Below are positions 1 to 23,380 of a DNA stretch of 64,000 bases, one piece after another. The position numbers were made by a program, and so were the translations under genes. Numbering within the stretch: position 1 is the stretch's first letter; every line of letters starts with the position of its first letter. This DNA is from Sphingomonas sp. (GTDB lineage Bacteria; Pseudomonadota; Alphaproteobacteria; Sphingomonadales; Sphingomonadaceae). The notes beneath the pieces are model-generated. The model ran no database searches. It had not been told where the DNA came from and saw only the letters and a list, made by a program, of their open reading frames with translations. The DNA lies in contig NZ_JAIERS010000015.1 of assembly GCF_019746665.1 (NCBI RefSeq), positions 1 to 64,000 of the forward strand. The letters run 5' to 3'.

Positions 1-2
1 GG

Positions 3-608
3 GGCGAAAAACGCTTGCCCAGCGAGCAAAATCAGGCGATCTTGAAGTCAAGCGGCAGGCCACTTGGAGAATGTCGGCTCAAAGCCTTTGCCGCGATCGA
101 GACTTTCGAGGGCCGGTCGAAGCTTTCGACCTGGCTTACCCGCATCGTCATCAACGAGGCCCTGGCCCGGCTGCGCTCGGCGCGGCGCCATGCGGCGCGC
201 GCGGAGCAAATGGCAGCGGCGGCGCGCCACATTGACACGCTCTTTGGCACAACGCCGCCGCCGACCCCGGACCAATTTGCCGAGCAAGCCGAACTGCGCG
301 TGTTGCTGGAACAGGCGATCGCGCGGCTGCCGGTTACCTACCGCATCGCGTTTGTTCTCCGAGAGATCGAGGGGATGACGGTGGATGAAGTCGCCGCCGC
401 GCTCAATGTTCTTCCCGCAACGGTGAAGATCCGGCATTTTCGGGCGCGGCGCATGCTACAGGCTGATCTCGCGCCGGTCGCGCGCGACGTGCTCGATGGG
501 TCGCTGCTGTTTGGCGGCGCGATCTGCGTGGCGCTTACCGAGCGGGTGAACGCGCTGATCGCCGCGCACCGCGACGCGGCGCCGGGCCGCGCGACGCTGT
601 CGGGTTAA
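3..608 (+). CDS. ECF-type RNA polymerase sigma factor, partial at the window edge
   Basis: The frame is open to the left edge, so the true start lies outside the window or is lost. The visible protein has the end of sigma region 2 (LKAFAAIETFEGRSKLSTWL followed by TRIVINEAL) and a full region 4 with its helix-turn-helix (LPVTYRIAFVLREIEG, then TVDEVAAALNVLPATVKIRHFRARRML). Such factors direct RNA polymerase to a small regulon, often envelope or redox stress. The residues before LKAFAA read AILKSSGRPLGECR, where the family normally has an acidic AEDVxQE core-binding block. This block looks shortened or scrambled, so the gene may be damaged. A gap of 296 bases separates it from the exported redox genes that follow; control of those genes is only an inference. 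No anti-sigma gene is visible. Confidence 0.75.
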   Translation, partial: GEKRLPSEQNQAILKSSGRPLGECRLKAFAAIETFEGRSKLSTWLTRIVINEALARLRSARRHAARAEQMAAAARHIDTLFGTTPPPTPDQFAEQAELRVLLEQAIARLPVTYRIAFVLREIEGMTVDEVAAALNVLPATVKIRHFRARRMLQADLAPVARDVLDGSLLFGGAICVALTERVNALIAAHRDAAPGRATLSG

Positions 609-904
609 ACGAAGCAGGGCAAGCGCGCCGCGTTTCTTCGCGCGATGCTGAAACGCCAAAGGGCGCTTGGGCATCTAAGCGCCATGCTCCCTGGATTTGC
701 CCCCCGTGATCCGTCTTTGGCCCTGTGTTTCACCCGCTATAGCGCCGCCCGATTTCAGCTCGGGCGCCAGCGCAAGGCGGCTCGAAAATCGCAGCCCTTT
801 AGAAACGCGCCGCCGCGTCCCGGTGTAATCGCCCGCTTCGCCGGGCTGGCGCGCCTATGCGGCAGATCGTGACCATCGCCTCTTGAGAAATAAGGAACCC
901 CAGG

Positions 905-1639
905 ATGACCGATCGAGACGGGCTTGCGGCAAGAGCGATGATCGCCAATAGGCGTCATTTCATGCTGGCCGGGGGCAGCGCGCTTGCCGGGATCGGCGCG
1001 CTCGGTTTCTCAGCCGACGCTGCCGCCGCCGCTGCCGCGCCAGCCGCCGCGGCGGGGGGCGTCAACCGGATCGGCTTTGCGGGCGGCGCGGGCGGGGAGT
1101 GGCGGGTAAGAAGCCAGACCACCCTGACCGGGGAGTCCTTGCCAAAGGTTGCCGGCTTGACCGTCCAGCTCAATGCGGTCCCCGCCGTGCCCGGGGCGGT
1201 GTGGACGCTCGACGGTGTGATCAGCAATTTGCGCTACACGACAAACCAAGAAGTCGCCGAGTTGCGACGCGCGCAGGCGCCCCTCGCGCGGCCCGAGGCG
1301 ATCTATGCATCGCTTATTCCCATCCGCAAGAAACAGGCCTGGTGGGATCTGCCCCAGGACGATCGGCGCGCGATATTCGAGGAGCGCTCGGGCCACACCT
1401 CGATCGGCTTGCGCTTCCTGCCGCAGATCGCCCGGCGTCTGCACCACTCGCGCGATATAGGCCAGCCGTTCGATTTCCTCACCTGGTTCGAATATGCGCC
1501 GCAGCATGAAGCACTGTTCGAGCAGTTGCTAGTGGAACTGCGCGCAAGTGAAGAATGGACCTATGTCGACCGAGAGATTGACATTCGGCTGGTCCGCAGT
1601 GCGCCGGCGCAAGCGGTCGGCGCTAAAACCGATCTATAG
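905..1639 (+). CDS. Tat-exported chlorite dismutase-family heme protein
   Basis: The 244-residue product opens with a twin-arginine signal (NRRHFMLAGGSALAGIGALGF, residues 15-35) and an alanine-rich linker, so it should be folded with cofactor and moved to the periplasm. Residues 130-230 match the chlorite dismutase/HemQ family: SLIPIRKKQAWWDLPQDDRR, then IARRLHH with H181 where the family has its proximal heme-ligand histidine, then FDFLTWFEYAP. Family members decompose chlorite, decarboxylate coproheme, or have other heme-peroxide chemistry. I cannot tell which applies, and the distal arginine needed for chlorite turnover is not evident to me. The ATG at 905 is preceded by AAGGA eight bases upstream. 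A paralogue lacking the signal sits at 20756-21316. Ferritin-like and cytochrome c genes follow. Confidence 0.8.
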   Translation: MTDRDGLAARAMIANRRHFMLAGGSALAGIGALGFSADAAAAAAAPAAAAGGVNRIGFAGGAGGEWRVRSQTTLTGESLPKVAGLTVQLNAVPAVPGAVWTLDGVISNLRYTTNQEVAELRRAQAPLARPEAIYASLIPIRKKQAWWDLPQDDRRAIFEERSGHTSIGLRFLPQIARRLHHSRDIGQPFDFLTWFEYAPQHEALFEQLLVELRASEEWTYVDREIDIRLVRSAPAQAVGAKTDL

Positions 1640-2290
1640 GCGCGACATCACCGGGGTCGGCGGGGCGAGACACCTCTGCTCGCCGGCATCCCGACAAGAA
1701 CTCCATGCGCCAGCTTTCGTGAATATTCTCGTTTAATTCCGTTATAAAACCCCCATCCGTGATCCATTATCTTACAAAGAACCCTTAATTGCCGCACTAT
1801 TATTTGTGGAAATGTCGGCGTTATATCGTTATAATCGCCAAAAATATAGCGCGCGTCCGCAACTTCAATCGACAGAGAACTTTTCTGTTCTTTGCATTAT
1901 TGTCCAAAATTGCTGCGATGGTTCGATGTCATCGGTAACGCAGGCGCCCGAGCGGTATCTAATAGCAAACAAGCCGTCGGAAGGCGAACCCGTGAGCCTG
2001 ATTACGGCACCCACCTCAGCCGCTGCGCTGCCCGCCAGCCTAGCCGGCCAAGCCTGTTGATGACCGCGATCCCGATCCCCCAGCGCGTTTAAATGGGGCC
2101 GGTCCGCCGCCCAAAACTTCCGTACCGCGTAATCAAATCGCCGATTTATCGCCGGAACATCGTTCCCCATGCCGTTTTTTCGTGGATCACGGAACCGGCA
2201 AGCGCCTGCGTTCCAAAATAGATCGGCGACTTCAACCATTTCCTTAGGCGCGAGCAACCCTGAAGCAATCGCGCCCCGAGCAGAGGGAGA
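1640..2290 (+). other. Intergenic region with an AT-rich island, no supported gene
   Basis: These 651 bases hold no reading frame with a recognisable protein or a convincing ribosome site. Bases from about 1735 to 1905 are clearly richer in A and T than the rest of the window and include several TATAAT-like strings near 1825-1860, so promoters are possible but cannot be assigned. Short open frames on both strands have no family features. The part from 2265 on carries the purine-rich ribosome site of the next gene. Confidence 0.5.
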
Positions 2291-2902
2291 ATGACGATGA
2301 TTGAAAAGAACCGGCTGAAAACGGCTGAACGCGCGACCGATCGGCGGAATTTCATGCTCGGCGGGGGTGCCGCTATCGCCGGGATCAGCGCGCTCAACTT
2401 TCTGAGTGGCCCCGCCACCGCCGCCGCGGTCAAGCGGCAGCTCAAGACGGCGGGTGAGGGTGATGTCGGCATTCTACAGGGCGCGCTCGCGCTCGAAATG
2501 GAGGGGATCGCCGCCTATACCATCGCTGGCGGCAGCGGCTTGTTGACTCCCGGCACGCTCAAAGTGGCGCTGGTGTTTCTGGGCCACCACAAGGCGCACC
2601 GAGACTCGCTCGCCAATCTGATCATCAAGGCGGGCGGCAAGCCGGTCGAACCCAAGACCGATGCCGAATATACCGCCAATCTCAACCTTGGCGCGCTGAA
2701 ATCGGAGGGCGATGTGGTGAAGCTCGCCGCAGCGCTCGAGCAGGGCGCCGCCAACGCCTATGTCGGTCAGGTCGCCGCCTTGCAGGACCGGTCGATCGGC
2801 CATTTGTTCGCGCAGCTCTCGACCGACGAAGCGGTTCATTGGGCGGTACTGAGCGGTGCGCTGGGCAACAGCGTTCCAGCCGAACCCTATCTGTTCGGGT
2901 GA
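2291..2902 (+). CDS. Tat-exported ferritin-like (four-helix) protein
   Basis: The 203-residue protein starts with a twin-arginine signal (DRRNFMLGGGAAIAGISALNF, residues 17-37) closely resembling that of the gene at 905, ending in an alanine-rich cleavage region. The mature part is a ferritin-like four-helix bundle with spaced acidic and histidine residues: E69/E71 (ALEMEG), H99-H103 (GHHKAHR), E150 (AALEQGAANAY) and D179/E180/H183 (TDEAVHW). This pattern suits a di-iron site. Family members are poorly characterised extracytoplasmic proteins; a role in metal or peroxide handling is inference. The start ATG has GAGGGAG just upstream. It lies six bases before the cytochrome c gene, so the two are probably co-transcribed. 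Confidence 0.8.
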   Translation: MTMIEKNRLKTAERATDRRNFMLGGGAAIAGISALNFLSGPATAAAVKRQLKTAGEGDVGILQGALALEMEGIAAYTIAGGSGLLTPGTLKVALVFLGHHKAHRDSLANLIIKAGGKPVEPKTDAEYTANLNLGALKSEGDVVKLAAALEQGAANAYVGQVAALQDRSIGHLFAQLSTDEAVHWAVLSGALGNSVPAEPYLFG

Positions 2903-2908
2903 TCAACG

Positions 2909-3286
2909 ATGCGCCCTTCTTCAATCATCGTGGCGATGGCGGTTCTGATGACCGCCACGCCCGCCGCGGCGCAATCGCCGGCGGATGGCCAGGCGCTGTA
3001 TCAGGCAAAATGCGGCGGCTGCCATTCGCTGGACGCCAACCGCATCGGCCCGGCGCATCGCGGCGTCGTCGGCCGGAAGATCGCGACCGCACCGGGCTAT
3101 CCCTATTCCAGCGCGATCAAAAAGCTCGCCGGTGTCTGGACCCCGGCCCGGCTCGACGTGTGGCTGCAAGGTCCGCAGAAGCTGGCGCCAGGATCGAAAA
3201 TGTTCCTCACCATTCCCGATCCAACCCAAAGAGCCGCGATCATCGCCTATCTTGTCGCGAACTCGACAGCTTCGACCGGGCGGTAG
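2909..3286 (+). CDS. Small class I c-type cytochrome, periplasmic
   Basis: This 125-residue protein has a Sec signal peptide (residues 1-21, MTATPAAAQ cleavage region) and one heme-binding CGGCH motif (C35, C38, H39), with M98 in GSKMFL as the likely second axial ligand. Length and motif order fit the cytochrome c550/c2 type (IGPAHRGVVGRKIATAPGYPYSSAIK is the usual middle section). It should carry single electrons in the periplasm. It follows the ferritin-like gene by six bases. Together with the exported chlorite-dismutase-family protein this makes a set of three extracytoplasmic metal or heme proteins; which enzyme it serves is unknown. Confidence 0.92.
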   Translation: MRPSSIIVAMAVLMTATPAAAQSPADGQALYQAKCGGCHSLDANRIGPAHRGVVGRKIATAPGYPYSSAIKKLAGVWTPARLDVWLQGPQKLAPGSKMFLTIPDPTQRAAIIAYLVANSTASTGR

Positions 3287-3539
3287 GGCGTTAACATCTA
3301 TTCCTGATTATTGTGGATCAGGTGCATAGGATACGCTGTGGTAATGAAAGATTGATCTGGTGGCGGCGGTGTTCCAAGCGAGCCTGCGCGAACACGGTCG
3401 CCACCCCCAAATCTTCGGTAGAAGAGCCAAAAGACGCCGCTGATTTTGGGATCACGAACGGCCGCCCTGAACGGCCGAAAGAGTGGCGCGTAGCGGCCAG
3501 TGGCTCCCAAAGTCTGCTTAATGGCGCCATCGGCTACCC

Positions 3540-5561
3540 TCAGAAACCTCCCTCGATCTGTAGCGCGAACAGCCGCCGCGACATTCGTCGGCGCGATTCG
3601 ATCACCGAGAAGGGAACCTCGCCCCGCACCCCGGCATAGCGGAACAGGTCGCGGTCGACCGCCTGGTCGAACAAGCGGTTCACTTCGAGCGAAAGTTTCA
3701 ACCCCTTGCGCACCACGAATTCGCCGAAGACCGAAACCGCCGGTCCGGGGCGGTAATCGCTGAACAGCGCGCTGCGGAAAGTGCGGCTGGGCGGCTCATA
3801 GGTGAAACGTGCGCCATAGGTGATGTCGCGCGAGGCGACGTGGCGGAAGCTGATGGTGCTGGGGTCGAACTCGCTGTTCTGGAAGGGGCGGGTCTGCCTG
3901 TTGAACGGATCGGTCACCATCGTGCGCCGCCAGGCGGCGTTCACCGTCAACTCGGCGCCGCGCAGCAGGAAATCGAGCGGCAGCGTCGCCAGCAGATCGA
4001 CGCCATAGGCGGTGCCGCTCGGGATGTTGCCGATGCCCTGGCCGCCCGCCACCGGGATCACGTCGACGATATTGCGCGCGCGCTCACCGACCAGCGTGAC
4101 CGCCACGCTGCCGCGCTTGCCCCAGCGGCGCTCGATCGTCAGCCGCGCGGCGTCGGTCTGCGGCGGTTGCAGCGCGGCGTTGGTCTGGGTCGCCGATCCG
4201 TCGGACACTTGCTGCGCGCCGACGAAATCGCCGAAATCGAGCTGGCCGACCAGACGTTCGAGCCGCAGGTTCACCGATGTGCGCGCGCCCGCCGCCCAGT
4301 TGAGCACCAGCCGGGGCTTCAGGAAGCGATAGGTGTTCGCACCGCGAAACGGCGCGGCGAGCTCGATCCGCGAGATTTCGCCGGCGAGCGCGGCTTCGAT
4401 GCTCAACTGCTTGATGCCGCTATAGGTGGCGGAAATCGCCGCCGATCCACGCCATTCGCCGACATCGGTGGTCCCTTGGTCCAGCAGGGATTGTCCCGCC
4501 GGGCTGGTGCCGAAGAAAGCGGTGGCGGCGCCCAGCGTCGTCCGCACGCCCTCCACCGCAATCTCGCCCGAAAGCTTGGACCAGCGCGGCGCCCAGCCCG
4601 CGCGGAGGATCGTTTCCGATCGAGTCTGCTTCGATTCGAACCGCGAAGCAGCGAAGTCTTCATCGGGAAAGCGGGATTCGATGCCCGAAAGGAAGCGCGA
4701 TCCCGACCAGGTTTGCAGCACGATCGCCTTGGCTTCGCCCCGCCCGATCGGGCACTTCAGCTCCAGCGAAAGCTCGGCGCTGCGATCGCGACTGGTATCG
4801 CTTTCCAGATCGAGGCGCGTCAGCTCGGGCTGGCCGATGGTGAACACGTCGAACTGGGACCGCCGGGTGAATTCGGAGGTGCGCAGCGCGGTGGACAAAG
4901 TGGTCGTCACGCCGGCGATTTTCCCGGCGATGCTGAACGACCCGGCGACCGCCTGATTGCGCCGGTTATCGACCAGCGGACCATCCTCCACGATTGCGCC
5001 GCCCGCGTTGATCAGCCGTTCGCGCCCTTCAAGCCGCATCAGCGTGTCGACCCCGCCGTCAACGCTTGCCGAAACGCTCGCCCCGGCGATAGCACCTTTC
5101 CAGGAAAGGGCGCCTGTGGGGGCGACGCGACTGTCGCCCACCGTTTCGCCGCGCAGGCGCCAGCTGCCGCCACCGCTCGCCTTCAGCACGATGTTCGCGA
5201 TCAGCCGGCTGCCGCCGCCCTGCAGCCCCGCCGAGGCGCCGTCGAGCAGCTCGATCCGGTCGACCGTGGCGGCGGGAATGCGCTTGAGATACTCGGCGAG
5301 CGCGACATCCTTGGTCACCGGGCGCGCGCCGTTTATCAGCACATTGCCCGCGGCATCGCCAAAGCCCCGCGCGCCATTCCCCTCCACCAAGGTAAAGCCG
5401 GGCACGCGGATCAGCATATCCAGCGCATTTTGCGGCTGCACATCGGCAAAGAAGGCGGCGGGATAGCTGGCCTTGGCGGTCGCGCCCTCGGCGGCGGCGG
5501 CGCGCGCTGAAACGATGCCGGCGCACAGCACGGCGAGCAGACTGACCGATCCCAGCTTCAT
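3540..5561 (-). CDS. TonB-dependent outer-membrane receptor
   Basis: The 673-residue protein has a signal peptide (MKLGSVSLLAVLCAG, cut after ARAAAAE), then a plug domain (NALDMLIRVPGFTLVEGNG, LINGARPV, IPAATVDRIELLDGASAGLQGG) and a beta-barrel ending in phenylalanine, as outer-membrane barrels do. It lacks an N-terminal signalling domain, so it is not a classic sigma-regulator receptor. I chose the start at 5561 because GGGGAGGATCA lies directly before that ATG; an upstream in-frame start would add 38 residues of non-signal sequence. The substrate is not evident. It lies 110 bases downstream of the histidine kinase gene on the same strand and may belong to its regulon. Confidence 0.85.
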   Translation of the reverse strand: MKLGSVSLLAVLCAGIVSARAAAAEGATAKASYPAAFFADVQPQNALDMLIRVPGFTLVEGNGARGFGDAAGNVLINGARPVTKDVALAEYLKRIPAATVDRIELLDGASAGLQGGGSRLIANIVLKASGGGSWRLRGETVGDSRVAPTGALSWKGAIAGASVSASVDGGVDTLMRLEGRERLINAGGAIVEDGPLVDNRRNQAVAGSFSIAGKIAGVTTTLSTALRTSEFTRRSQFDVFTIGQPELTRLDLESDTSRDRSAELSLELKCPIGRGEAKAIVLQTWSGSRFLSGIESRFPDEDFAASRFESKQTRSETILRAGWAPRWSKLSGEIAVEGVRTTLGAATAFFGTSPAGQSLLDQGTTDVGEWRGSAAISATYSGIKQLSIEAALAGEISRIELAAPFRGANTYRFLKPRLVLNWAAGARTSVNLRLERLVGQLDFGDFVGAQQVSDGSATQTNAALQPPQTDAARLTIERRWGKRGSVAVTLVGERARNIVDVIPVAGGQGIGNIPSGTAYGVDLLATLPLDFLLRGAELTVNAAWRRTMVTDPFNRQTRPFQNSEFDPSTISFRHVASRDITYGARFTYEPPSRTFRSALFSDYRPGPAVSVFGEFVVRKGLKLSLEVNRLFDQAVDRDLFRYAGVRGEVPFSVIESRRRMSRRLFALQIEGGF

Positions 5562-5671
5562 TGATCCTCCCCAGCTTCCATCGTGCTGGGTCGCATGTGC
5601 CTGGTGCGGGCTGGTTGGCGGTTGCTTGCCGGATTGTTGCGATCGACCAAGCGGTGGCGGTGCCGCGCGGC

Positions 5672-6808
5672 TCAATCCGCCGGCAGGATCATCTCGGCGC
5701 GCGCGCCGCGCGGCTGGTTGGCGCTGAGCTGCAATTCGCCGCCATGCGCGCGCGCCACCGCCTCGACGATTGCAAGGCCCAGCCCCGATCCGCCCGATTG
5801 GCGCGAGCGCGACTCGTCGCCGCGCACGAAAGCGCCCGCCAGCGCCTGCGGATCGGCGACCGGCCAGCCGGGGCCGGTGTCGCTGACCGCCAGCACGATC
5901 CTGCCCCCGCTGCTGCCGACCGAGAGGCGGATGGTGCTACCGGGCGCATAACGGATCGCGTTGCTCACCAGATTGAGCAGCGCCCGCTCGATCCGGGCGG
6001 GATCGGCACGGGTAGTGATCGCGGCAACCTCGGGGATCAGCGTCGCGCCGCCCGCCTCGGCTTCCGGACGCAACGCCTCGATCACGGCACGGGCGGTCTG
6101 GTCGAGCCGCACGTCCTCGATCTCCAGCCGCAGCTCGCCCTGCTGGCGTGCCGCGAGCAGGTTGAGGTCCGCCACCAGTTGATCGACTAGCGTGATCTGT
6201 CGCAATAGGCTTTCGAGCATTGCCGCGTCGAACGCGAAGACGCCGGCTTGGGCGCCGATCAGCCGCCCGCGCATCACCGCGAGCGGGGTGCGCAGCTCAT
6301 GCGCGATCGCTGCCGAGCGCAGGCGGACATCGTTATCGGCGGCATCGAGTGCTGCGACCATCGTCGTGAAATCGCGGTGGAGCGTCGCGATCTCGCGCGG
6401 GGCGCTGCTGCTGAGCGGCGGCGGCGGTTCGCGGCCGCCGAGCGCCACCGCGCGCGCGCAATCGGCAAGCGCGGCGATCGGCCGGGCAATGCGCTGGGCC
6501 GAGCCGATGGCGAGCGCGCCGCAGATGGCCGCCGTCAGCGCGATCAGCGCGCCGAGCGCCCAATTATAGTTCAGCCGCCACGGCGCAAAGCCATGCGCCA
6601 GCTTGAAATTTTGCACCTGCGGCGAACATTGGCCGTGATCGGCGAGCAAACGCGAAAGCGTCTGCTGATCGGGCGCCGACAGGCTCGCCAGGAACAGCTT
6701 GTCGCGAATGAGGTAGATGTAATCGGGCACGAAGGCTGCGACCAGGGCCGCGACCACGCTGATCACGATCGCGCTCAGCGCGATGCGCGTGCCAAGGCTC
6801 GTCGTCAT
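5672..6808 (-). CDS. Sensor histidine kinase, membrane-bound
   Basis: The 378-residue protein has two membrane segments (residues about 10-28 and 84-103) around a short periplasmic sensor of about 55 residues, then a HAMP-like stretch, the phosphoacceptor box (AIAHELRTPLAVMRGRL, H170) and an ATP-binding domain with N (NLVSNAIRYAPG), G1 (DTGPGW) and G2 (GGSGLGLAIVEAVARAHGG) boxes. It should phosphorylate the regulator encoded immediately upstream, whose stop codon overlaps this start by four bases. The small sensor domain has no recognisable ligand fold. The layout secreted protein - regulator - kinase - receptor suggests sensing of an extracellular compound or envelope state. Confidence 0.92.
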   Translation of the reverse strand: MTTSLGTRIALSAIVISVVAALVAAFVPDYIYLIRDKLFLASLSAPDQQTLSRLLADHGQCSPQVQNFKLAHGFAPWRLNYNWALGALIALTAAICGALAIGSAQRIARPIAALADCARAVALGGREPPPPLSSSAPREIATLHRDFTTMVAALDAADNDVRLRSAAIAHELRTPLAVMRGRLIGAQAGVFAFDAAMLESLLRQITLVDQLVADLNLLAARQQGELRLEIEDVRLDQTARAVIEALRPEAEAGGATLIPEVAAITTRADPARIERALLNLVSNAIRYAPGSTIRLSVGSSGGRIVLAVSDTGPGWPVADPQALAGAFVRGDESRSRQSGGSGLGLAIVEAVARAHGGELQLSANQPRGARAEMILPAD

Positions 6809-7521
6809 GCCACCAGATCCAGGCGATAGCCCTCGCCGCGGATGCTGGTGAGCCGCACGCCCGCTCCCGCGCTTTCCAGCTTCTGGCGCAACCGGCTGAT
6901 GTGCGGATCGACCGAGCGATCATATGCATCCCCCGCCAGCGCATGATCGACGATCTGTGCGCGGCTCACCAGCCGGCCGCCGCGCTCGACGAACAGGCGG
7001 AGCAGGCGGAACTCGACCGGGGTGAGCGTGAGCGGCACGCCATCGGCAAAGGCCCGGAACGCCTCCAGATCGACCCGCAGCTTGCCGAAGCCGAGCGTGC
7101 GATGCTCCGGCTGCCGCGCCGCGCGCCCGAGCAGCACCTTGGCGCGCGCGATCAGTTCGAGCGGGTTGAACGGCTTCACCAGATAATCGTCGCACCCCAG
7201 CCGGAAGCCGGTGAGCTTGTCGATATCATCGCCCAGCGCGCTGACGATCAGCACGCCCGTCGCCTTGCCGGTCGAGCGCAGCTCGGCGAGCACCGATAGC
7301 CCGTCGCGCCCCGGCAGGCGAATGTCGAGCACCAGCAGATCGGGGCACCACCACCGCGCGGCGTCGATGGCGTCGGTACCGCTGGTCGCGATCAGGCACT
7401 GCGCCTCCTCCTTCTTGAAGAAGGCCTCGACGATTTCGGCGATTTCGGGTTCGTCCTCGGCGATCAGCACCTTCACGCCGCGCAGCGCGTTGTCGATCGT
7501 GCGGCTGGCTTCCTCGATCAC
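6805..7521 (-). CDS. OmpR-family response regulator
   Basis: The protein has a receiver domain (VKVLIAEDEPEIAEIV with the acidic pair, phosphoacceptor aspartate in LLVLDIRLPGRDG, lysine in DDYLVKPFNP) and a winged-helix DNA-binding domain (LTLTPVEFRLLRLFVERGGRLVSRAQI, then RSVDPHISRLRQKL and IRGEGYRL). It is the partner of the kinase whose start overlaps its stop. I prefer a GTG start at 7521, ten bases after the upstream gene ends and preceded by a G-rich ribosome site, giving 238 residues. An ATG at 7563 would overlap the upstream gene by 32 bases and has no clear ribosome site. Confidence 0.9.
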   Translation of the reverse strand: MIEEASRTIDNALRGVKVLIAEDEPEIAEIVEAFFKKEEAQCLIATSGTDAIDAARWWCPDLLVLDIRLPGRDGLSVLAELRSTGKATGVLIVSALGDDIDKLTGFRLGCDDYLVKPFNPLELIARAKVLLGRAARQPEHRTLGFGKLRVDLEAFRAFADGVPLTLTPVEFRLLRLFVERGGRLVSRAQIVDHALAGDAYDRSVDPHISRLRQKLESAGAGVRLTSIRGEGYRLDLVA

Positions 7522-7531
7522 ATCACCCCCG

Positions 7532-8098
7532 TCATTCGCGCGCCTGTTCGAGCGAAACATCATCTATAACCAGCGTGCCGCTTTCCTCGAACACCGAGAT
7601 GCCGATCGCGATACGCTTCGTGCCCGCCGGCACCACCGCGCGCAGCCGGCGTTCGTTCCAGGCGGCATCGCGCCAGGGCGCGTCATAATCATTGAGATAG
7701 CCGAGCCGTTTGCCGGCTGCATCGACGAACGCCAGCCACAGGCCCGCCTTGCTCTTCGGGTTGCCCCGGTGGAGCCAGGCGGAGAGGATGATGGGGCGGC
7801 CCTCCAGCCCCTCCGCCGCTATCCCCTGGATGATCCCGGCATAGCCGGCGCTGCTCGTCTGCTTGTCGAAAGTGATCGCCACTGCATTGGCGCCGCCATG
7901 CACCTGCGCGGTTGTGAGGGCGTAGCCCGCCTCGGCACGGTCCGGGCGCCAGCTCTCGGGCAGATCGGGTGCTGTCGGCGCGGCGCCTTCGAAGCCCCCG
8001 TTCTTCAGCAGGTTTGGCGCCTGGGCATCCACCGGCTGGGTCCAAGACACCAGAGCAACGAGCGCTAACAAGATGTGACGAAGAGATATAGCGCGCAT
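7532..8098 (-). CDS. Secreted protein with a carbohydrate-binding-like beta-sandwich
   Basis: This 188-residue product has a signal peptide (MRAISLRHILLALVALVSW, cut after PVDAQA). The mature part starts with NLLKNGGFEG and ends with GTLVIDDVSLEQ, the usual first and last strands of CBM4/9-like jelly-roll domains that bind sugars or pack against enzyme domains. No catalytic domain is present, so it is a free-standing binding module. The ATG at 8098 has GGGGA five bases upstream; upstream in-frame codons give no signal peptide. It is the first gene of the run leading to the two-component pair, so it may act as an extracytoplasmic sensing partner. That role is inference. Confidence 0.65.
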   Translation of the reverse strand: MRAISLRHILLALVALVSWTQPVDAQAPNLLKNGGFEGAAPTAPDLPESWRPDRAEAGYALTTAQVHGGANAVAITFDKQTSSAGYAGIIQGIAAEGLEGRPIILSAWLHRGNPKSKAGLWLAFVDAAGKRLGYLNDYDAPWRDAAWNERRLRAVVPAGTKRIAIGISVFEESGTLVIDDVSLEQARE

Positions 8099-8519
8099 CG
8101 TTTCCCCGCGAGTATTGGGTAAGGCGCGCTCGCGGGTGCGGGCGTCGCGACATCGAGTGGTGGCAATAGCGAACGTCGACAGCTGCTCGGGCTGGTCGAT
8201 GCCACGCCGTTGTTTCCCCGGCATTGTCAGATTGTTGCGACACTGTTGCGCCGGGTGCCAAGGGCTCGCGGCCAGACGCAATTCATGCGGCCGCAGGCGC
8301 AGTTATCCGCCGTTTTTCGCCGCTGAACGTCGCACACCGTAAGAAACGGTTGCGAATCCTCTCTCATCAACCGTTTTCCGCCGTTTCACGGTGTAGAACG
8401 GCAGAATTCCTAGCTTCCCCACCACACAATCACTTCCTGATGTGCGTCATTCGTACGTTGCGGTGCTGCTCAGGCTGGGCGGCGAGAGCAGCTATGCGTT
8501 TGCGTTCTGACGGATAACG
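8099..8519 (+). other. Non-coding stretch at the edge of an eroded integrated element
   Basis: No gene is supported in these 421 bases. The left part should contain the promoter of the minus-strand two-component run starting at 8098. The right part contains a cluster of inverted repeats (8344-8402). The base composition of 8330-8450 is more AT-rich than that of the surrounding genes, consistent with foreign DNA. Confidence 0.5.
8344..8402. repeat. Two adjacent inverted repeats with a shared AACGG core
   Basis: The first repeat has perfect nine-base arms AAACGGTTG (8344-8352) and CAACCGTTT (8368-8376). The second has six-base arms GCCGTT (8380-8385) and AACGGC (8397-8402). The same core, GCCGTTT, occurs again near 8310. 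Neither pair is followed by a T-run. The block lies between the minus-strand promoter at 8098 and the decayed element, so it could be a protein-binding array or element-end sequence; the function is unknown. Confidence 0.5.
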
Positions 8520-8735
8520 CACTTGTGGTTTTCTGGCCAATGACGAAACCGTGCTCGCCCACCAGCAGTATCAAGCCTTTTTTCGGGCGGCACACCCGGC
8601 CGCTGACCCGGTGCGTGACCGCTGCTCAACTGGCAGAAGGCGGACCGGTGCGGGATCAAGGTGATCAGTCACAGCCGGCAAGGCTGCGACCATTACTTCC
8701 AGGCGCTTGGCTAGGATTGGGGCGCTGCCTTTCAT
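8520..8735 (+). pseudogene. Frame-shifted fragment of an unidentified gene
   Basis: Reading one frame gives FLANDETVLAHQQYQAFFRAAHP and on to ADPVRDR; shifting frame near 8625 continues as LLNWQKADRCGIKVISHSRQ and then GCDHYFQALG before a stop. Joined, these look like one ordinary soluble protein segment, whereas each frame alone is soon closed or turns arginine-rich. I do not recognise the family. No start or ribosome site is visible. It lies beside the broken integrase and is probably another remnant of the same element. This call rests only on frame continuity and is tentative. Confidence 0.3.
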
Positions 8736-8738
8736 GAA

Positions 8739-10573
8739 TCAGGCCTTCGAATATTTTCTTGGGCCCGTCCCCTCGCGCGCATGACCCAGGATGTCGTCAA
8801 CGATAAGTTGCTTGGCATCCGACGCATCCGAAGCGCTGCCTCCGGTCGTTCGAAGGGAGTGAAGGTCGGCGCGCTTGCCCTCCGATGTCCCCGGTAGCGG
8901 GAGAAAACCGTCAACATAATCGAGAGGGTACCGGCCCGCCGATGCGTAGAACCGCTTCCCGCCGACATTTACGAGATTCTTTTGATACAGCTCATGAAAT
9001 GCCTCGACATGCCCCTCGGTCTCAATGGCCTTGGCATAATCTCGTAGACCAAGCCGCAACAGCTCCGGATGGAGAGGGACCATGCGACGTCGCGAAGGAC
9101 GCTTTAAGCCTGGCGGCCGCTCGCCATCTTTGCTTTTTGTCATGTTTTCGGCGATCGTCAAAAACAGTGTGTCAACGTCGATGGCGAAATCTTCGCATTC
9201 CAATCCGCATAATTGCTCTTGTGAAATAATACTGGAATTGAGAAGGAGAGGCGCCCAATATGCCGCATCGTGCCAGATCATTGGTTATTGGTGATCTTGA
9301 AGCGCCGACCGCATCCACCGCCGCCGGTATAGATCGGCGATGAGAAAAACTGACGCAAATGTTTATCCGTCCAAGGCATTCTATCGGGATCGTCGGGATT
9401 ATCAATCGGGCTGGCGCTTGTTAAGGCCGTGAAGTCGAGCACGGGATCCTTGCCATAGCGAGGCTTCCACGCGGTCTTCCTCAACTCTCGGCCGAGTCTG
9501 CTGAGCGTGGTTAGGTCACGGTTAACCGTTCGAATATCGCGCTTCTTACCGGCTTTCTTCGAGACCTCGGTTATCACCTCATCAAACGGGCAGCTCATGT
9601 TGCCCTTCTCGACGGTGCCCCATTAAAAATCTGTCGGTAGTTGTCGAAGCGTGGCGGCAAAGTGCTGTGCCTCGCCTGGCCGATAGTCGCACAGCCGCTT
9701 GTTACCTGTGATCCAAGCGAAACCGCGGATGACGCGCACGCGTTGCGCCACGTCTTCGTTCCAATCCCCCGATGCTTGGATATCGGCGACGATGTCGTCG
9801 ATGACATTCGAGAGGCGGCGCGTGTCGTTCGTCAGGAACGGCGTTGGGATTGGTGCCTCGACAGGCGCGGGCGCCGCTCGTGCTGTCTCGCTCACATCGA
9901 CCCGAAGCTGCATGACCAAGTTGTCGTCGAGCAGAATCGACATCCGATTACCGCCGGTTGCAACTTCAGCGCGATCAAGAAGCTGTGCCCTGGTCTGAGC
10001 TTCGGCTTTGGCCGGCAAGATTTGTGCCTTGGCGTCTCGGCTTGTGGCGGTGTTGATCGGGGCCTCGATCGACGCGAGGCATGCGCGCGCACTTGCTGTG
10101 GCCGCCCGGTGCGGTGCCAACGCCTTGAGCATCAGCACGACCGCATGGCGGTCAGCGTCTAAGAACCCCTCCGTCAAGCTATTCAAAAGCTCGATCGATA
10201 TCGTGTCCGCATCTGGGGCGAGGCGGGCGGCGATGCGATAAGTCGCCTCAAGCACTTGAGCGGCGCGTGGATCGCTCCGCCCATCTCCGTCGAGCCGCGC
10301 GGCGGTTGCCAGACCGAGCTCCTCGTCGAGGCCGCGTTTAAACGGAGCAACGGCCTCACTTGCGGTCATAAGGCCGCGCTCGATCCGCTCGTTCATCATC
10401 ATCGTCATCGCATCCCACCGGACCGACAGCCGGCAGACGAGGCGGCGTGCCTCGACGGGGTCGGCGGTCTTCAACGGAACGGTTATAGGACGGTTTACGA
10501 ATTTCCGCCGGTAGAGCCTGCGGCGATAATGGTAACGTGCGCCACGCCGCGTGAGATACGATATCGTCGCCAC
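8739..10573 (-). pseudogene. Tyrosine-recombinase integrase, broken by a stop codon and a frameshift
   Basis: Three consecutive pieces make one phage/island integrase of roughly 610 residues. Piece 1 (10573-9623) holds the N-terminal part (SYLTRRGARYHYRRRLYRRK). It ends at an in-frame TAA after RQLPTDF, and the same frame carries on as WGTVEKGNMSCPFDEVITEV (9598-9278). Near 9285 a one-base loss shifts the frame to MIWHDAAYWAPLLLNSSIIS (9281-8739). The last piece keeps HSLR, ILGH and the terminal KYSK tyrosine, but where the first catalytic arginine is expected (normally GAR before EEICGL) the sequence reads IISQEQLCGL. The gene is therefore doubly interrupted and catalytically suspect. The intact N-terminus faces the 3' end of tRNA-Gly, the usual attachment geometry. 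Confidence 0.88.
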
Positions 10574-19625: not shown

Positions 19626-20747
19626 TCAAAGACCCTCGGGCTTCGGCCCGCGCCGGACGGTGTCGAGCGTCGCGCAGTGAAACGCGCCGCCGAACGGACC
19701 GTAAGCGATGAAGTCGCACGGGATCGGCTCATAGCCCCAGTCCTTGAACGCCTTGATCAGGCTCGGCTGGCGCTCTTCCACGATCACGCGCTTCTCGTCG
19801 ATCGAGAGCACGTTGATGCTCGTCCACGGGCTGCACATGGAGATTTTCTCCATGATGTCGTCGACCGGATCAGGGCGCGGCGCGATCAGCAGCTCCCAGT
19901 CCTTCAGCACCGGGGGCAGCGCGTCCATGTCCAGATAATCGGGGTTCACCAGCGCGCGCTTGGGGCCGAGGATCAGGAAGGTGGAATCGATGTGCATCGG
20001 GTTGCGGCACTTGCTCGGCATCCGGTGGATGCGGAACCGGTCACCCAGATGGCGTTCGAGCCAGGTGATGCCCATTTCGTTCGTCACGTTCGAGCGGGTG
20101 ACGAAAATGTCGCGCCCGGCGCGCGCGAAGTCGGCGGCGTCGAACACCGGCTCGAACTCGGTCGTCAGGAAGCGCAGCGGCTCGCCATATTTGGGAATGG
20201 TATAGTTATAGTCGAAAATCTCGTCGGTCAGCTGCGGGCGCGGGGCCGAGGTCCAGCGCGCGCCGCGCCGAAAATAATCCTTGAACAGCCGGCGATAGGC
20301 GTCGCCCTCGAAATAGCGCGAACGCCACGCCATCGGGGTTTCGATGATCTCATCGCCGATCACCAGATAGCCGTCGCGCGGGCAGGCGACGCAGAAGCCC
20401 TTGCTCGACCATAGCGGCGAGCCGAAGCTGCGATGGTGCGGTACCTGGTCCGGGCGGACGACCTTGACGTTCGCCTGTTCGAGCACGCGGATCAGGTTGT
20501 CGAGCGCCGCCTGGCCGCGCTTGACCATCCATTTGGGATAGCGGCGTCCCGCGACCAGCCGGTGCAGCCGGCCGGTGAAGCTCGGGACGTTGAGCGTCAC
20601 CGAGACGTGATAGGGCGGGATCGTCGCGCCTTCCAACCGGCCGACGATGACTTCCTCAAGCGGATCCCACTCGTTCCACGACCACACCGCGGGCAGCGCG
20701 GCCTCCGGCGTGCCGCTGTGCGAAGGCGCATCCTGTTCAAGCAACAT
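19626..20747 (-). CDS. Glycine amidinotransferase-like enzyme (AGAT family)
   Basis: The 373-residue protein aligns with L-arginine:glycine amidinotransferase over its length. The catalytic triad is readable: aspartate D206 in FDAADFARAGRDIF, histidine H252 in NPMHIDSTF and the nucleophilic cysteine C358 in GPFGGAFHCATLDTVRRG. Spacing matches the mammalian enzyme (D254, H303, C407). Such enzymes move an amidino group from arginine to an amine, giving guanidinoacetate or related products in creatine-like compounds and some natural-product pathways. The acceptor here is unknown. The gene follows the chlorite-dismutase-family gene by eight bases and may be the last gene of the run beginning at GH42. 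Confidence 0.9.
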   Translation of the reverse strand: MLLEQDAPSHSGTPEAALPAVWSWNEWDPLEEVIVGRLEGATIPPYHVSVTLNVPSFTGRLHRLVAGRRYPKWMVKRGQAALDNLIRVLEQANVKVVRPDQVPHHRSFGSPLWSSKGFCVACPRDGYLVIGDEIIETPMAWRSRYFEGDAYRRLFKDYFRRGARWTSAPRPQLTDEIFDYNYTIPKYGEPLRFLTTEFEPVFDAADFARAGRDIFVTRSNVTNEMGITWLERHLGDRFRIHRMPSKCRNPMHIDSTFLILGPKRALVNPDYLDMDALPPVLKDWELLIAPRPDPVDDIMEKISMCSPWTSINVLSIDEKRVIVEERQPSLIKAFKDWGYEPIPCDFIAYGPFGGAFHCATLDTVRRGPKPEGL

Positions 20748-20755
20748 CTAGCGAC

Positions 20756-21316
20756 TCATTCCCCTGGCTTCGGCGCCTCCGCATCCGGCAACCGGACCAG
20801 GCGCACTTCCACTTCGCGCGCGACATGGCGCCATTCCTCGGTCTCGCGCAACCTTTTAAGTAGTTTATCGAAGGCGCCCTCATGCTCGGGGGCGAACTCG
20901 AACCAGGTCAGGAAATCGAACTCGCCGCCCAAGTCCCGGCAATGATAGAGTTTTCGGGCGACCTCCGGCAGATACTCGTGCCCGATCGAGAAATGGCCGC
21001 TGCGCGCGTAGATCGCGCGGCGCTCGTCCTGCGCCAGTGCCCACCAGGCGCTGCTCTTGCTGATCGGAATCAGCACGCCGTGAAGCGCCTCCCGCCGGTC
21101 GAGCGGGGCGGAGACCGGCTGCAGCGCGTCGCGTTCGTCGGCGGTGGTGTAGCGCAGATTGCTGGCGATGCCGCTCAATTGCCAGGCGCCGCGCCCCGGC
21201 GGGCCGACCGCGAGCCGTTCGGCCGGGGGCAGGGTGCCGCCGATGATCGGCTCGATCGAGGTGATCTGCCAGCGACCTGTGGTGCCGGCGGTGAAGTGGG
21301 TGGGCTGAGCGAACAT
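20756..21316 (-). CDS. Chlorite dismutase-family protein without export signal
   Basis: This 186-residue protein is a paralogue of the product at 905-1639 (shared GVLIPISKSSAWWALAQDER, RSGHFSIGHEYLPEVARKLY, then HCRDLGG and FDFLTWFEFAPEHE). H125 sits at the proximal heme-ligand position. Unlike that protein it has no twin-arginine signal and should be cytosolic. It is only eight bases upstream of the amidinotransferase gene and 36 bases downstream of the GH42 gene, on the same strand. The ribosome site before 21316 is weak. Its reaction is unknown; heme-dependent chemistry on a guanidino compound is a speculation from position only. Confidence 0.8.
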   Translation of the reverse strand: MFAQPTHFTAGTTGRWQITSIEPIIGGTLPPAERLAVGPPGRGAWQLSGIASNLRYTTADERDALQPVSAPLDRREALHGVLIPISKSSAWWALAQDERRAIYARSGHFSIGHEYLPEVARKLYHCRDLGGEFDFLTWFEFAPEHEGAFDKLLKRLRETEEWRHVAREVEVRLVRLPDAEAPKPGE

Positions 21317-21352: not shown

Positions 21353-23293
21353 TCAACCATTGCGCCCCCGTATCGGCCACGCCGCGACACCGGCGGGCGG
21401 GAGCGGGTCGGCGCCGATCATGGGCGCGCCGAACTCCAACGGGGTGAGCGGCACCGCTTCGGGGCCATAGTTAAACGCGAAGCACCAGCGATCGGTGCGG
21501 CGCACGCGAAGGTCGGCGGGCAGGGGGGTGAGCTTTAGGTCGGCCTCCAGCGCCATGCGTCGCATCAGCCGGTCGAGCAAGGCAGCGTCGGGCCAGGCGC
21601 CGAGGTAGCGCAGTTGCCCCGAGCCGAACACGATACCGCGTCCGTCGGCGAGCTCTTCCTCGGGGGCCAGGTCGCTCTCGACATGCTCGAGCCAGCGGGT
21701 CACCGCGAAGCCGTCGCCGTGCTCGGCCAAGCCCTCGCGCAGGCTTTCGACGCGCACGACTTTTAGCGGCAAATGCTCCTGGAGCGGGCCGGGCGGCAGC
21801 TCGGGCGGGGTCTGGAAGCTTTCGGTGCGGCTGCCGGTGCGCGGGCCGAACAGCACGGGGACGCCGAGCGCCGCGATCCTGTCCGCCGTCGCTGTGTCGA
21901 GCATCGGCAGGCTGGGCGCGACGATCATCCGGTAGGCCGCCAGATCGGCCTCGGGCGGCACGATGTCGACGTCCAAGCCCAGCCGGCGCAACGCCGTGTA
22001 CCATTCGTGGGCGAGCTGCAGATAGCGGAAGCTCTTGCCCTGGGGCTGGGTCTCGATCGCCCAACTCGCGGGATAGCTGAACAGCAGCGCGACCGGGGCT
22101 TGCGGCGTGCCGACCTCCCCCAGCGCCGCCAGATCGTGCGCGGCGGCGCGCGCCTCGATCGCGCCCTGATCCTCGGCGCTGTCGGGGCGGAGCAGCCCGG
22201 CGTGATGCGCCTCCTGCCCGAACGGCGCCTGGCGCCAGCGGAAATAGCTGGTCAGCTCGGCACCATGCGCCGCGGCCTCCAGCGTCCACAGCCGCACCAT
22301 GCCGGGAAGCGGGGCGGGGTTGTGCGCGGACCAGTTCACCGGCCCCGGCTGCTGCTCCATCACCCACCAGCGCCCGCGCCCGGCGCCGCGATAGAGATCA
22401 TGGTGGAAGGCGGCGATGTCCGGATGGCCTTGCCGGGCGTAACGCAGCTTATCCTCGCGGCTGAACCAGAAGCTGTCGAGGAAGCCGATCGGATAGCTGT
22501 CCCACGTCGCTACATCGAGATCGGCGCTGACGTCATGGTGATCGAACTGGGTGAAGAAGCCCATGAAGTTATGGACGATGTCGCGCCCCGGCGAGTCCGC
22601 GCGCAGGATCGCGACTTGCGCCGCGTTGAAGGCGCGCACCTGATCGGAGGAAAAGCGCCGCCAGTCCATCACATGCGCCGGGTGCGGCTCGGTGACGGTG
22701 AGGTTGGGCGGGTCGATCTCGGCGAAGTCGCGATATTCCATCGACCAGAAGACGGTGCCCCAGGCGGCGTTGAGCGCCGCGACATCGCCATAGCGCGCGC
22801 CGAGCCACGCCCGGAACCCCTCGGCGGCGGCTGGCGAATGGCTGATCGCGGTATCGTGGCAGCCATATTCATTGTCGGTCTGCCACGCGACGATGGCGGG
22901 ATGATCGCCGTACCGTTCGGCCAGCGCGCGGGTGATGCGCTCGGCCTCGGCGCGGTAGCCGGGGTGCGAGAAGCAATAATGGCGCCGCGAGCCGAAACGG
23001 CGCGGGCGACCCTGGGCGTCGAGCGCGATCATGTCGGGCATTTGATCGACCAGCCATTTGGGCGGGGTCGCGGTCGGCGTGCCGAGGATGATGCCAAGGC
23101 CCTCGGCCGCCAGCGTCGCGATCGCGCGATCGAGCCAGCCCCAGTCGAACCGACCCGGTTCGGGCTCGATCCGGCTCCAGGCGAATTCGCCGATGCGGAC
23201 CCGGCTGAGCCCGAGCGCGGCCATCCGCCGCGCATCCTCGGCCCACCAAGCCTCGGGCCAATGTTCGGGGTAATAGCAGCAGCCCAGACGCAT
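21353..23293 (-). CDS. Beta-galactosidase, glycoside hydrolase family 42
   Basis: The 646-residue protein begins GCCYYPEHWPEAWWAEDARR, typical of GH42, and has the acid/base glutamate E142 (AWQTDNEYGC) and nucleophile E313 (VMEQQPGPVNW). It also has the trimerisation/glutamine-amidotransferase-like middle domain (VALLFSYPASWAIETQP) and a small beta C-terminal domain (WCFAFNYGPEAV). It hydrolyses terminal beta-galactosides; no signal peptide is present, so it should act in the cytosol on imported sugars. AAGGGAG precedes the ATG; a longer GTG form would overlap the divergent promoter. The SSS symporter gene is divergent 87 bases away, suggesting shared control of uptake and hydrolysis. Confidence 0.93.
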   Translation of the reverse strand: MRLGCCYYPEHWPEAWWAEDARRMAALGLSRVRIGEFAWSRIEPEPGRFDWGWLDRAIATLAAEGLGIILGTPTATPPKWLVDQMPDMIALDAQGRPRRFGSRRHYCFSHPGYRAEAERITRALAERYGDHPAIVAWQTDNEYGCHDTAISHSPAAAEGFRAWLGARYGDVAALNAAWGTVFWSMEYRDFAEIDPPNLTVTEPHPAHVMDWRRFSSDQVRAFNAAQVAILRADSPGRDIVHNFMGFFTQFDHHDVSADLDVATWDSYPIGFLDSFWFSREDKLRYARQGHPDIAAFHHDLYRGAGRGRWWVMEQQPGPVNWSAHNPAPLPGMVRLWTLEAAAHGAELTSYFRWRQAPFGQEAHHAGLLRPDSAEDQGAIEARAAAHDLAALGEVGTPQAPVALLFSYPASWAIETQPQGKSFRYLQLAHEWYTALRRLGLDVDIVPPEADLAAYRMIVAPSLPMLDTATADRIAALGVPVLFGPRTGSRTESFQTPPELPPGPLQEHLPLKVVRVESLREGLAEHGDGFAVTRWLEHVESDLAPEEELADGRGIVFGSGQLRYLGAWPDAALLDRLMRRMALEADLKLTPLPADLRVRRTDRWCFAFNYGPEAVPLTPLEFGAPMIGADPLPPAGVAAWPIRGRNG

Positions 23294-23380
23294 TACGATC
23301 TCCCTTGGCGGCCGGCATAGCCTGCCGGCTTGCGCGCGCGAAAGCACCTTCTATGCTCTTTGAAAAACAGGGGAGTGGAG

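Follow-up and report, generated by a model that had tools for sequence, protein, structure and literature searches.

A stretch of 64,000 nucleotides from Sphingomonas sp. (RefSeq assembly GCF_019746665.1), hereafter the window, raises the question of how a chlorite dismutase (Cld) came to carry a twin-arginine export signal, and of what it would do next to an exported ferritin-like protein and a cytochrome c. This stretch makes up the first 64 kb of contig C19 (98,164 bases) of our own genome (G000; 3.10 Mb, 30 contigs, 95% complete). Three frames are open there on the + strand: cld (905-1639, 244 aa), a ferritin-like gene of family PF13668, also with a twin-arginine signal (2291-2902, 203 aa), and a gene for a class I mono-heme cytochrome c with a CGGCH motif and, by eye, a Sec-type signal (2909-3286, 125 aa). 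An earlier note, made from the letters alone, had seen in them a periplasmic redox unit driven by the extracytoplasmic function (ECF) sigma factor encoded at the window edge. The genes are real and they do lie together, but the unit proposed is wrong, as the ferritin-like and cytochrome genes recur widely without Cld; the notable results lie elsewhere, in the capture of a signal by Cld, in a conserved ferritin-cytochrome pair and in a split regulator gene.

The explanation we favour, with a probability of roughly 0.58, is that the exported Cld would serve periplasmic chlorite detoxification and joined an uncharacterised module of a dinuclear-metal protein and a cytochrome c, its signal having been captured from the ferritin-like neighbour. 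An exported ferritin-like protein would work in the periplasm with a cytochrome c of its own, the two being conserved together in several families of the class; part of the ferritin-like gene, comprising the leader, the twin-arginine signal and the first residues of the mature protein, would have been copied onto the 5' end of cld; and a lineage-2 Cld, normally of a cytoplasmic kind, would have become exportable through this captured end. To judge from its key residues, the exported enzyme would most likely break down chlorite that enters the periplasm, yielding chloride and oxygen. The sigma factor would be the probable ancestral local regulator, its gene being now split by the insertion sequence ISPme1. 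We would thus have a concrete case of a cytoplasmic enzyme made periplasmic by a leader and signal taken from an adjacent gene through partial duplication, a capture visible at the DNA level in one genome.

Chlorite dismutase and the source of its export signal

The product of 905-1639 scores 37.1 bits against Chlor_dismutase (Pfam cut-off 25), and its closest solved sequences are seven clade-2-type PDB entries (E 6e-58 to 4e-51; 9gtj 6e-58, 3qpi 6e-55, 5k8z 5e-52) with chains of 188-193 aa. Longer Cld chains (241-260 aa) match far more weakly, at best 1.5e-10, and the PDB sequences of coproheme decarboxylases reach only E 0.6-0.9. Like the dimeric lineage-2 enzymes 3qpi and 5k8z of Nitrobacter winogradskyi and Cyanothece PCC7425, the window Cld has a short core devoid of the clade-1 N-terminal domain together with all four key residues; unlike them, it carries a twin-arginine signal. 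Aligned to 3qpi, K142, H164, R177 and E217 correspond to K92, H114, R127 and E167 of NwCld, by which functional Cld is defined (PMC9751292), and these four are invariant in 6/6 sequences. Since all four are present, chlorite:O2 lyase activity is likely. The family had, thus, been named correctly in the earlier note, but not the proximal histidine: H181 aligns with NwCld H131, and the heme ligand is H164 (NwCld H114).

One has to keep in mind that a cytosolic location is usual for lineage 2 without being strict: clade-2 Clds are described as cytosolic in PMC4973843, one of sixteen papers in which both chlorite dismutase and twin-arginine appear, and a small number of lineage-2a Clds are given as periplasmic in PMC9751292. 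The twin-arginine stretch predicted in the window Cld, NRRHFMLAGG, resembles that of the ferritin-like protein, DRRNFMLGGG. The likeness, already pointed out in the earlier note, exceeds what chance would give: over their first 75 residues, the two proteins align with a score of 100, compared with at most 59 in 500 shuffles, and we regard the two signals as homologous. The related segment of cld spans about 905-1075 (its boundary is approximate), with 25/63 columns identical between the two window peptides.

The clearest evidence comes from the genome of a relative, G094, in which an exported Cld also precedes a ferritin-like gene. The 5' ends of these two genes are identical in 183/221 alignment columns (82.8%), over a stretch that includes 46 bases ahead of the cld start codon and 172 beyond it and takes in codons of the mature ferritin-like protein; this DNA alignment scores 248, compared with at most 29 in 200 shuffles. 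At the protein level, 41/58 columns are identical, including the mature ferritin residues KRQLK..GD. When 20 ferritin-like N-termini are ranked against the exported Cld of G094, the best two are those of G094 and the window (196 and 157, next 81); against the window Cld, the same two lead (96 and 93, next 79). Start codons are doubtful for a few of the ferritin-like homologues (L115, L127 and L137), and a start-independent ranking keeps the same top order.

These data bear directly on the view that cld, as a mobile passenger, came to lie beside the pair by chance, with a twin-arginine signal alike by convergence. Cld is said to be heavily transferred (PMC9751292), an ISPme1 end lies shortly before cld on a Paracoccus albus plasmid as well as on a Roseomonas contig, and the full trio is rare; yet the best-matching signals belong to adjacent genes, and convergence is contradicted for the G094 signals, because their DNA homology begins ahead of the start codon and continues into codons for the mature ferritin-like protein. 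We, thus, consider chance neighbourhood very unlikely.

As for the direction of copying, an in-frame twin-arginine signal is found in 19/20 ferritin-like homologues (the twentieth has one in another frame). A motif search of 84 loci gave 82 Cld frames in 81 of them (none in L029, L042 and L087); twin arginines followed by a hydrophobic stretch occur in five of these frames: the window, L017 (the G094 locus), L032, L039 and L081, and the L081 extension is spurious, being upstream DNA. Since nearly all ferritin-like proteins and almost no Cld frames have the signal, it was likely copied from ferritin-like gene to cld. The 5' end of cld would, thus, apparently derive from the neighbouring ferritin-like gene, the homology being seen in the DNA of G094. 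Two points weigh against this account: the Cld signal of the window has much diverged from the ferritin-like one, with a short DNA match only, and the clear homology of 5' ends is that of G094.

The recipient can be narrowed down. G094 encodes a cytoplasmic Cld next to the exported one, and a recent duplication of the former was considered as the source of the latter. It was rejected: in a tree built without a clade-1 outgroup, the window Cld pairs with the exported Cld of G094 (support 99), and the cytoplasmic Clds of G094, G193, G143 and G079 form a separate group (support 98). The acceptor was, thus, a different lineage-2 Cld, as the exported enzymes group apart from the adjacent cytoplasmic one. 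The idea that twin-arginine signals on lineage-2 Clds are confined to the window and G094 proved wrong as well. The Acidobacteriota loci L032 and L039 have lineage-2 Clds with short twin-arginine signals unlike the ferritin-like one, so that this lineage may have acquired export on more than one occasion.

Where would the chlorite come from? The assembly (95% complete) holds a single PF00384 protein, which reads by eye as NuoG of complex I, and no nitrate reductase of the PF00384 family was found in it; chlorite from the bacterium's own chlorate reduction is, therefore, unlikely. Aerobes of this kind are discussed in section 9 of PMC9751292, and extracellular chlorite is a possible selective pressure in a bacterium with no molybdopterin-family nitrate reductase found. 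Chlorite removal is the best guess for Cld; of the roles and links proposed in the earlier note, iron storage and the three-gene unit are not supported.

The ferritin-like protein and its cytochrome c

The ferritin-like assignment stands (Ferritin_2, 77.5 bits for a Pfam cut-off of 24.7), and so does that of the CGGCH cytochrome (Cytochrom_C, 38.9 bits for a cut-off of 21.3; PDB cytochromes c, best E 3e-21). Iron storage, the other role suggested by the earlier note, found no support in any of the tests made. A single-sequence search with the ferritin-like protein matched nothing in the PDB at E ≤1 and, thus, gave no sequence relation to solved ferritins or Dps. Seven residues, E69, E71, H100, H103, E150, E180 and H183, are invariant in 17/17 aligned rows, window included (E33, E35, H64, H67, E114, E144 and H147 in alignment numbering; 36 is added for the full protein). 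They plausibly form a dinuclear metal site with an HxxH motif in a predicted second helix. The AlphaFold model was poor (two-row alignment, predicted local distance difference test 38) and was not used, which counts against this picture; the putative site is, therefore, read from conservation alone.

The cytochrome gene starts 6 bases after the ferritin-like gene, and this arrangement is not peculiar to the window. At E ≤0.001, the ferritin-like protein occurs in 5/201 genomes of the genus and 16/397 of the family, and a window-type cytochrome gene adjoins its gene in 20/21 of these loci, our own two included. At E ≤1e-15, it occurs in 18/289 genomes of a class-level sample, with a cytochrome gene beside it in 14/23 loci (our own two left out; L184 and L199 overlap). 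On the other side of the balance, the cytochrome is absent at the remaining 9/23, three of which (L179, L184 and L195) stop at contig ends. An ECF gene adjoins the ferritin-like gene in 4/21 genus and family loci (G207, G267, G350 and G488, with folE nearby in G267 and G488), a survey reaching about 1.5 kb on each side, so that ECF genes farther away are missed; it lies clearly upstream in 2/23 class-level loci (L177 and L185), and L184, L186 and L191 show weaker ECF matches. The conserved unit is, thus, the ferritin-like protein with cytochrome c, sometimes with an ECF gene and usually without Cld. The ferritin-like protein would probably act in the periplasm, as a redox enzyme with a dinuclear metal site that trades electrons with the cytochrome. 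A conserved pair with invariant ligand-like residues is also one that can be tested.

The family itself suggests another role, the main alternative for this protein. Metal-dependent metabolite phosphatases exist among ferritin-like proteins, with PF13668 named (PMC11616004), and our protein belongs to this Pfam family with the Ferritin_2 score given above; it could, thus, be a phosphatase of the desiccation-related kind (DRB0118, RvFeMP) and the Cld neighbourhood a generic stress cluster. Indeed, it shares with DRB0118 and RvFeMP-1 (PMC11616004) ligand-like residues in four predicted helices. It differs from them by HxxH instead of ExxH in helix 2 and by its twin-arginine signal, and its frequent cytochrome partner suggests electron transfer. 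Asp135 of RvFeMP-1, needed for activity (PMC11616004), apparently has no counterpart: three positions beyond the helix-3 glutamate, 17/17 rows have an alanine (A117 in alignment numbering), the correspondence to Asp135 being judged by motif only. We, thus, find a phosphatase quite improbable, and keep a dinuclear-metal redox enzyme as the preferred reading of this protein.

Our genome has a second pair of ferritin-like and cytochrome c genes, on contig C23 (G000:C23:92246-92683; L115 9250-10091). The twin-arginine signal and the mature part of this ferritin-like copy are in different reading frames, so that this copy is perhaps broken or wrongly assembled. A gene resembling, by eye, an AraC/cupin-type regulator adjoins the C23 pair, as in L112 and L114.

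The split sigma factor gene and the linkage of the three genes

The strongest competitor of the favoured explanation is that the three genes do form one oxidant-defence unit under the ECF sigma factor, simply one that is rarely sampled. The best argument for it is G094, where folE, an ECF gene, an FAD/NAD/2Fe-2S reductase gene, a cytoplasmic Cld, the exported Cld, the ferritin-like protein, cytochrome c and a PF04143 transporter follow one another on one strand. An ECF gene also stands beside the ferritin-like and cytochrome genes in the four genomes listed above (G207, G267, G350 and G488), and PMC9751292 counts ECF factors and oxidative-stress genes among those linked to Cld. Against it, among the best 80 of 562 named Cld loci (flanks up to 9 kb, many cut by contig ends), the pair lies near Cld in one only, again that of G094 (L017). 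G193 and G143 have folE, ECF, reductase and Cld together and the ferritin-cytochrome pair on another contig, and Cld and the ferritin-like protein are on different contigs in G079, G428, G476 and G506 too. The co-occurrence called for by the earlier note was, thus, limited to one further genome of those examined, and a single conserved unit is not what the data describe, given how widespread the ferritin-like and cytochrome genes are without Cld. That physical linkage of Cld with the pair is limited to two genomes also weighs against our own explanation.

Presence and absence tell a more nuanced story. Within the genus, Cld and the ferritin-like protein occur in the identical 5/201 genomes, after a sixth Cld match, in G013, was dropped because it spans just query residues 3-92 (37% identity, E 5.7e-4). 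The five fall in one seven-row clade of an argG DNA tree with G050 and G122, in neither of which was either protein found; the support is 80/61, or 96/88 without our own genome, in a tree covering 50 of the 199 genomes with an argG match, and G122 is only 83% complete. Kinship may, thus, explain the co-occurrence within the genus, a further point against our own explanation. Among the 397 family genomes, 9 have Cld and 16 the ferritin-like protein; four have both, compared with 0.36 expected, or three compared with 0.30 without our own genome (hypergeometric 0.002, kinship ignored; G476 and G506 belong to one genus). This excess speaks for the one-unit explanation.

Bases 78-608 (+) encode the 3' part of a PRK11922-like ECF factor, with Sigma70_r4_2 at 53 bits, a partial Sigma70_r2 and 155.6 bits against NF008888, below the whole-protein cut-off of 204. 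The preceding bases 1-77 (+), at the contig end, are the right end of ISPme1, an IS1380-like insertion sequence; they are 98.7% identical to the end of the ISPme1 copy annotated in Paracoccus albus, and bases 1-90 used as a query match 34/72,556 plasmid records. The DNA match to the intact ECF gene of G193 begins at base 78. Residues 60-229 of the G193 protein map to C19:72-572 and residues 3-70 to C23:158319-158522, so that sigma regions 2 and 4, uninterrupted in an intact factor, are divided between two contigs. The end of C23 (158501-158577) consists of 77 bases identical to the opposite end of ISPme1, CTCAA is present on either side of the element, and no ISPme1 was found in our assembly besides these two ends. 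The ECF gene is, thus, split by ISPme1, probably by simple insertion in the order C23-element-C19; that each contig stops after 77 bases of the element fits an assembly break at a repeat.

That the factor encoded at the window edge drives the genes, as the earlier note had it, is, thus, not supported, the window copy being a 3' fragment, and present expression must come from elsewhere. This is a warning for anyone relying on the sigma factor gene beside Cld in this genome, and it stands against the one-unit explanation too. An intact ECF gene does adjoin the ferritin-like gene or Cld in some relatives; a GGAAY search for a shared ECF promoter motif found none, which also counts against an ancestral regulator in our preferred account. 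The gene following the ECF gene is cld in the window and the reductase in G094, G193 and G143, and no remnants of a reductase gene were found between ECF and cld in the window. Known reactive-chlorine ECF systems (a sensing sigma factor paired with a DUF1109 anti-sigma, Haemophilus RpoE2-msrAB, Brucella BcrS; PMC9751292 section 7 part 1, PMC7907618, PMC8315932) likewise place an ECF gene beside periplasmic oxidant-defence genes. Our locus differs from them in its neighbours, which are Cld and the ferritin-like/cytochrome c pair and not a methionine sulfoxide reductase, in an ECF factor nearest the PRK11922 model, and in showing no adjacent anti-sigma gene, a mark of the SigF-type systems that sense reactive chlorine species, genes beyond the immediate neighbours not being searched.

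A gap of 651 bases (1640-2290), devoid of a convincing gene and with a guanine plus cytosine content of 54.5% compared with 65% for the first 9 kb, separates cld from the ferritin-like gene, so that the three genes are not one tight operon. A promoter scan of 1-3600 returned a single sigma-70-like site (1807-1835), no more than expected by chance and not near the ISPme1 end, and an Rfam scan of 1-9000 gave no match. We regard the one-unit explanation as possible but rather unlikely. A broader speculation, to which we lend just as little credence, is that ECF factor, exported ferritin-like protein and cytochrome c would make up an undescribed periplasmic oxidant defence of this class, in which a His-rich dinuclear-metal enzyme passes electrons from the cytochrome to a reactive oxygen or chlorine species, and to which some Sphingomonas lineages would have added an exported Cld by grafting the 5' end of the ferritin-like gene to cld. 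In a literature search largely of open-access papers, we found no paper joining chlorite dismutase, a ferritin-like protein and a sigma factor, and none that combines four or more of ferritin-like, ECF sigma factor, cytochrome c, GTP cyclohydrolase and Sphingomonas.

Other features of the locus and its relatives

Several observations accompany these results. ISPme1 ends about two dozen bases upstream of cld on the Paracoccus albus plasmid (L171 3885-3986) and on the Roseomonas contig (L081 8882-8958 onward), and in the window, too, it lies close to cld; mobilisation of cld by this element is possible. On a Pseudomonas aeruginosa plasmid (L111 2501-3588), an ISPme1 end lies just before msrB-msrA; the MsrA found there, WP_003464967.1, is listed as Cld-linked in PMC9751292. 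In three Cld genomes, folE is directly upstream of the ECF gene (L013 15806-16468, L014 6898-7545 and L015 7062-7739), and it is near an ECF gene also at L135 and L139, in genomes where no Cld was found.

Finally, the window encodes a second, signal-less Cld on the - strand (20756-21316), a paralogue by Pfam (Chlor_dismutase, 39 bits), PDB (E 1e-54) and tree that lies outside the unit discussed here. It sits between an amidinotransferase-like gene (19626-20747; no Pfam match of its product at 0.001) and a beta-galactosidase-like gene (21353-23347), both named by eye.

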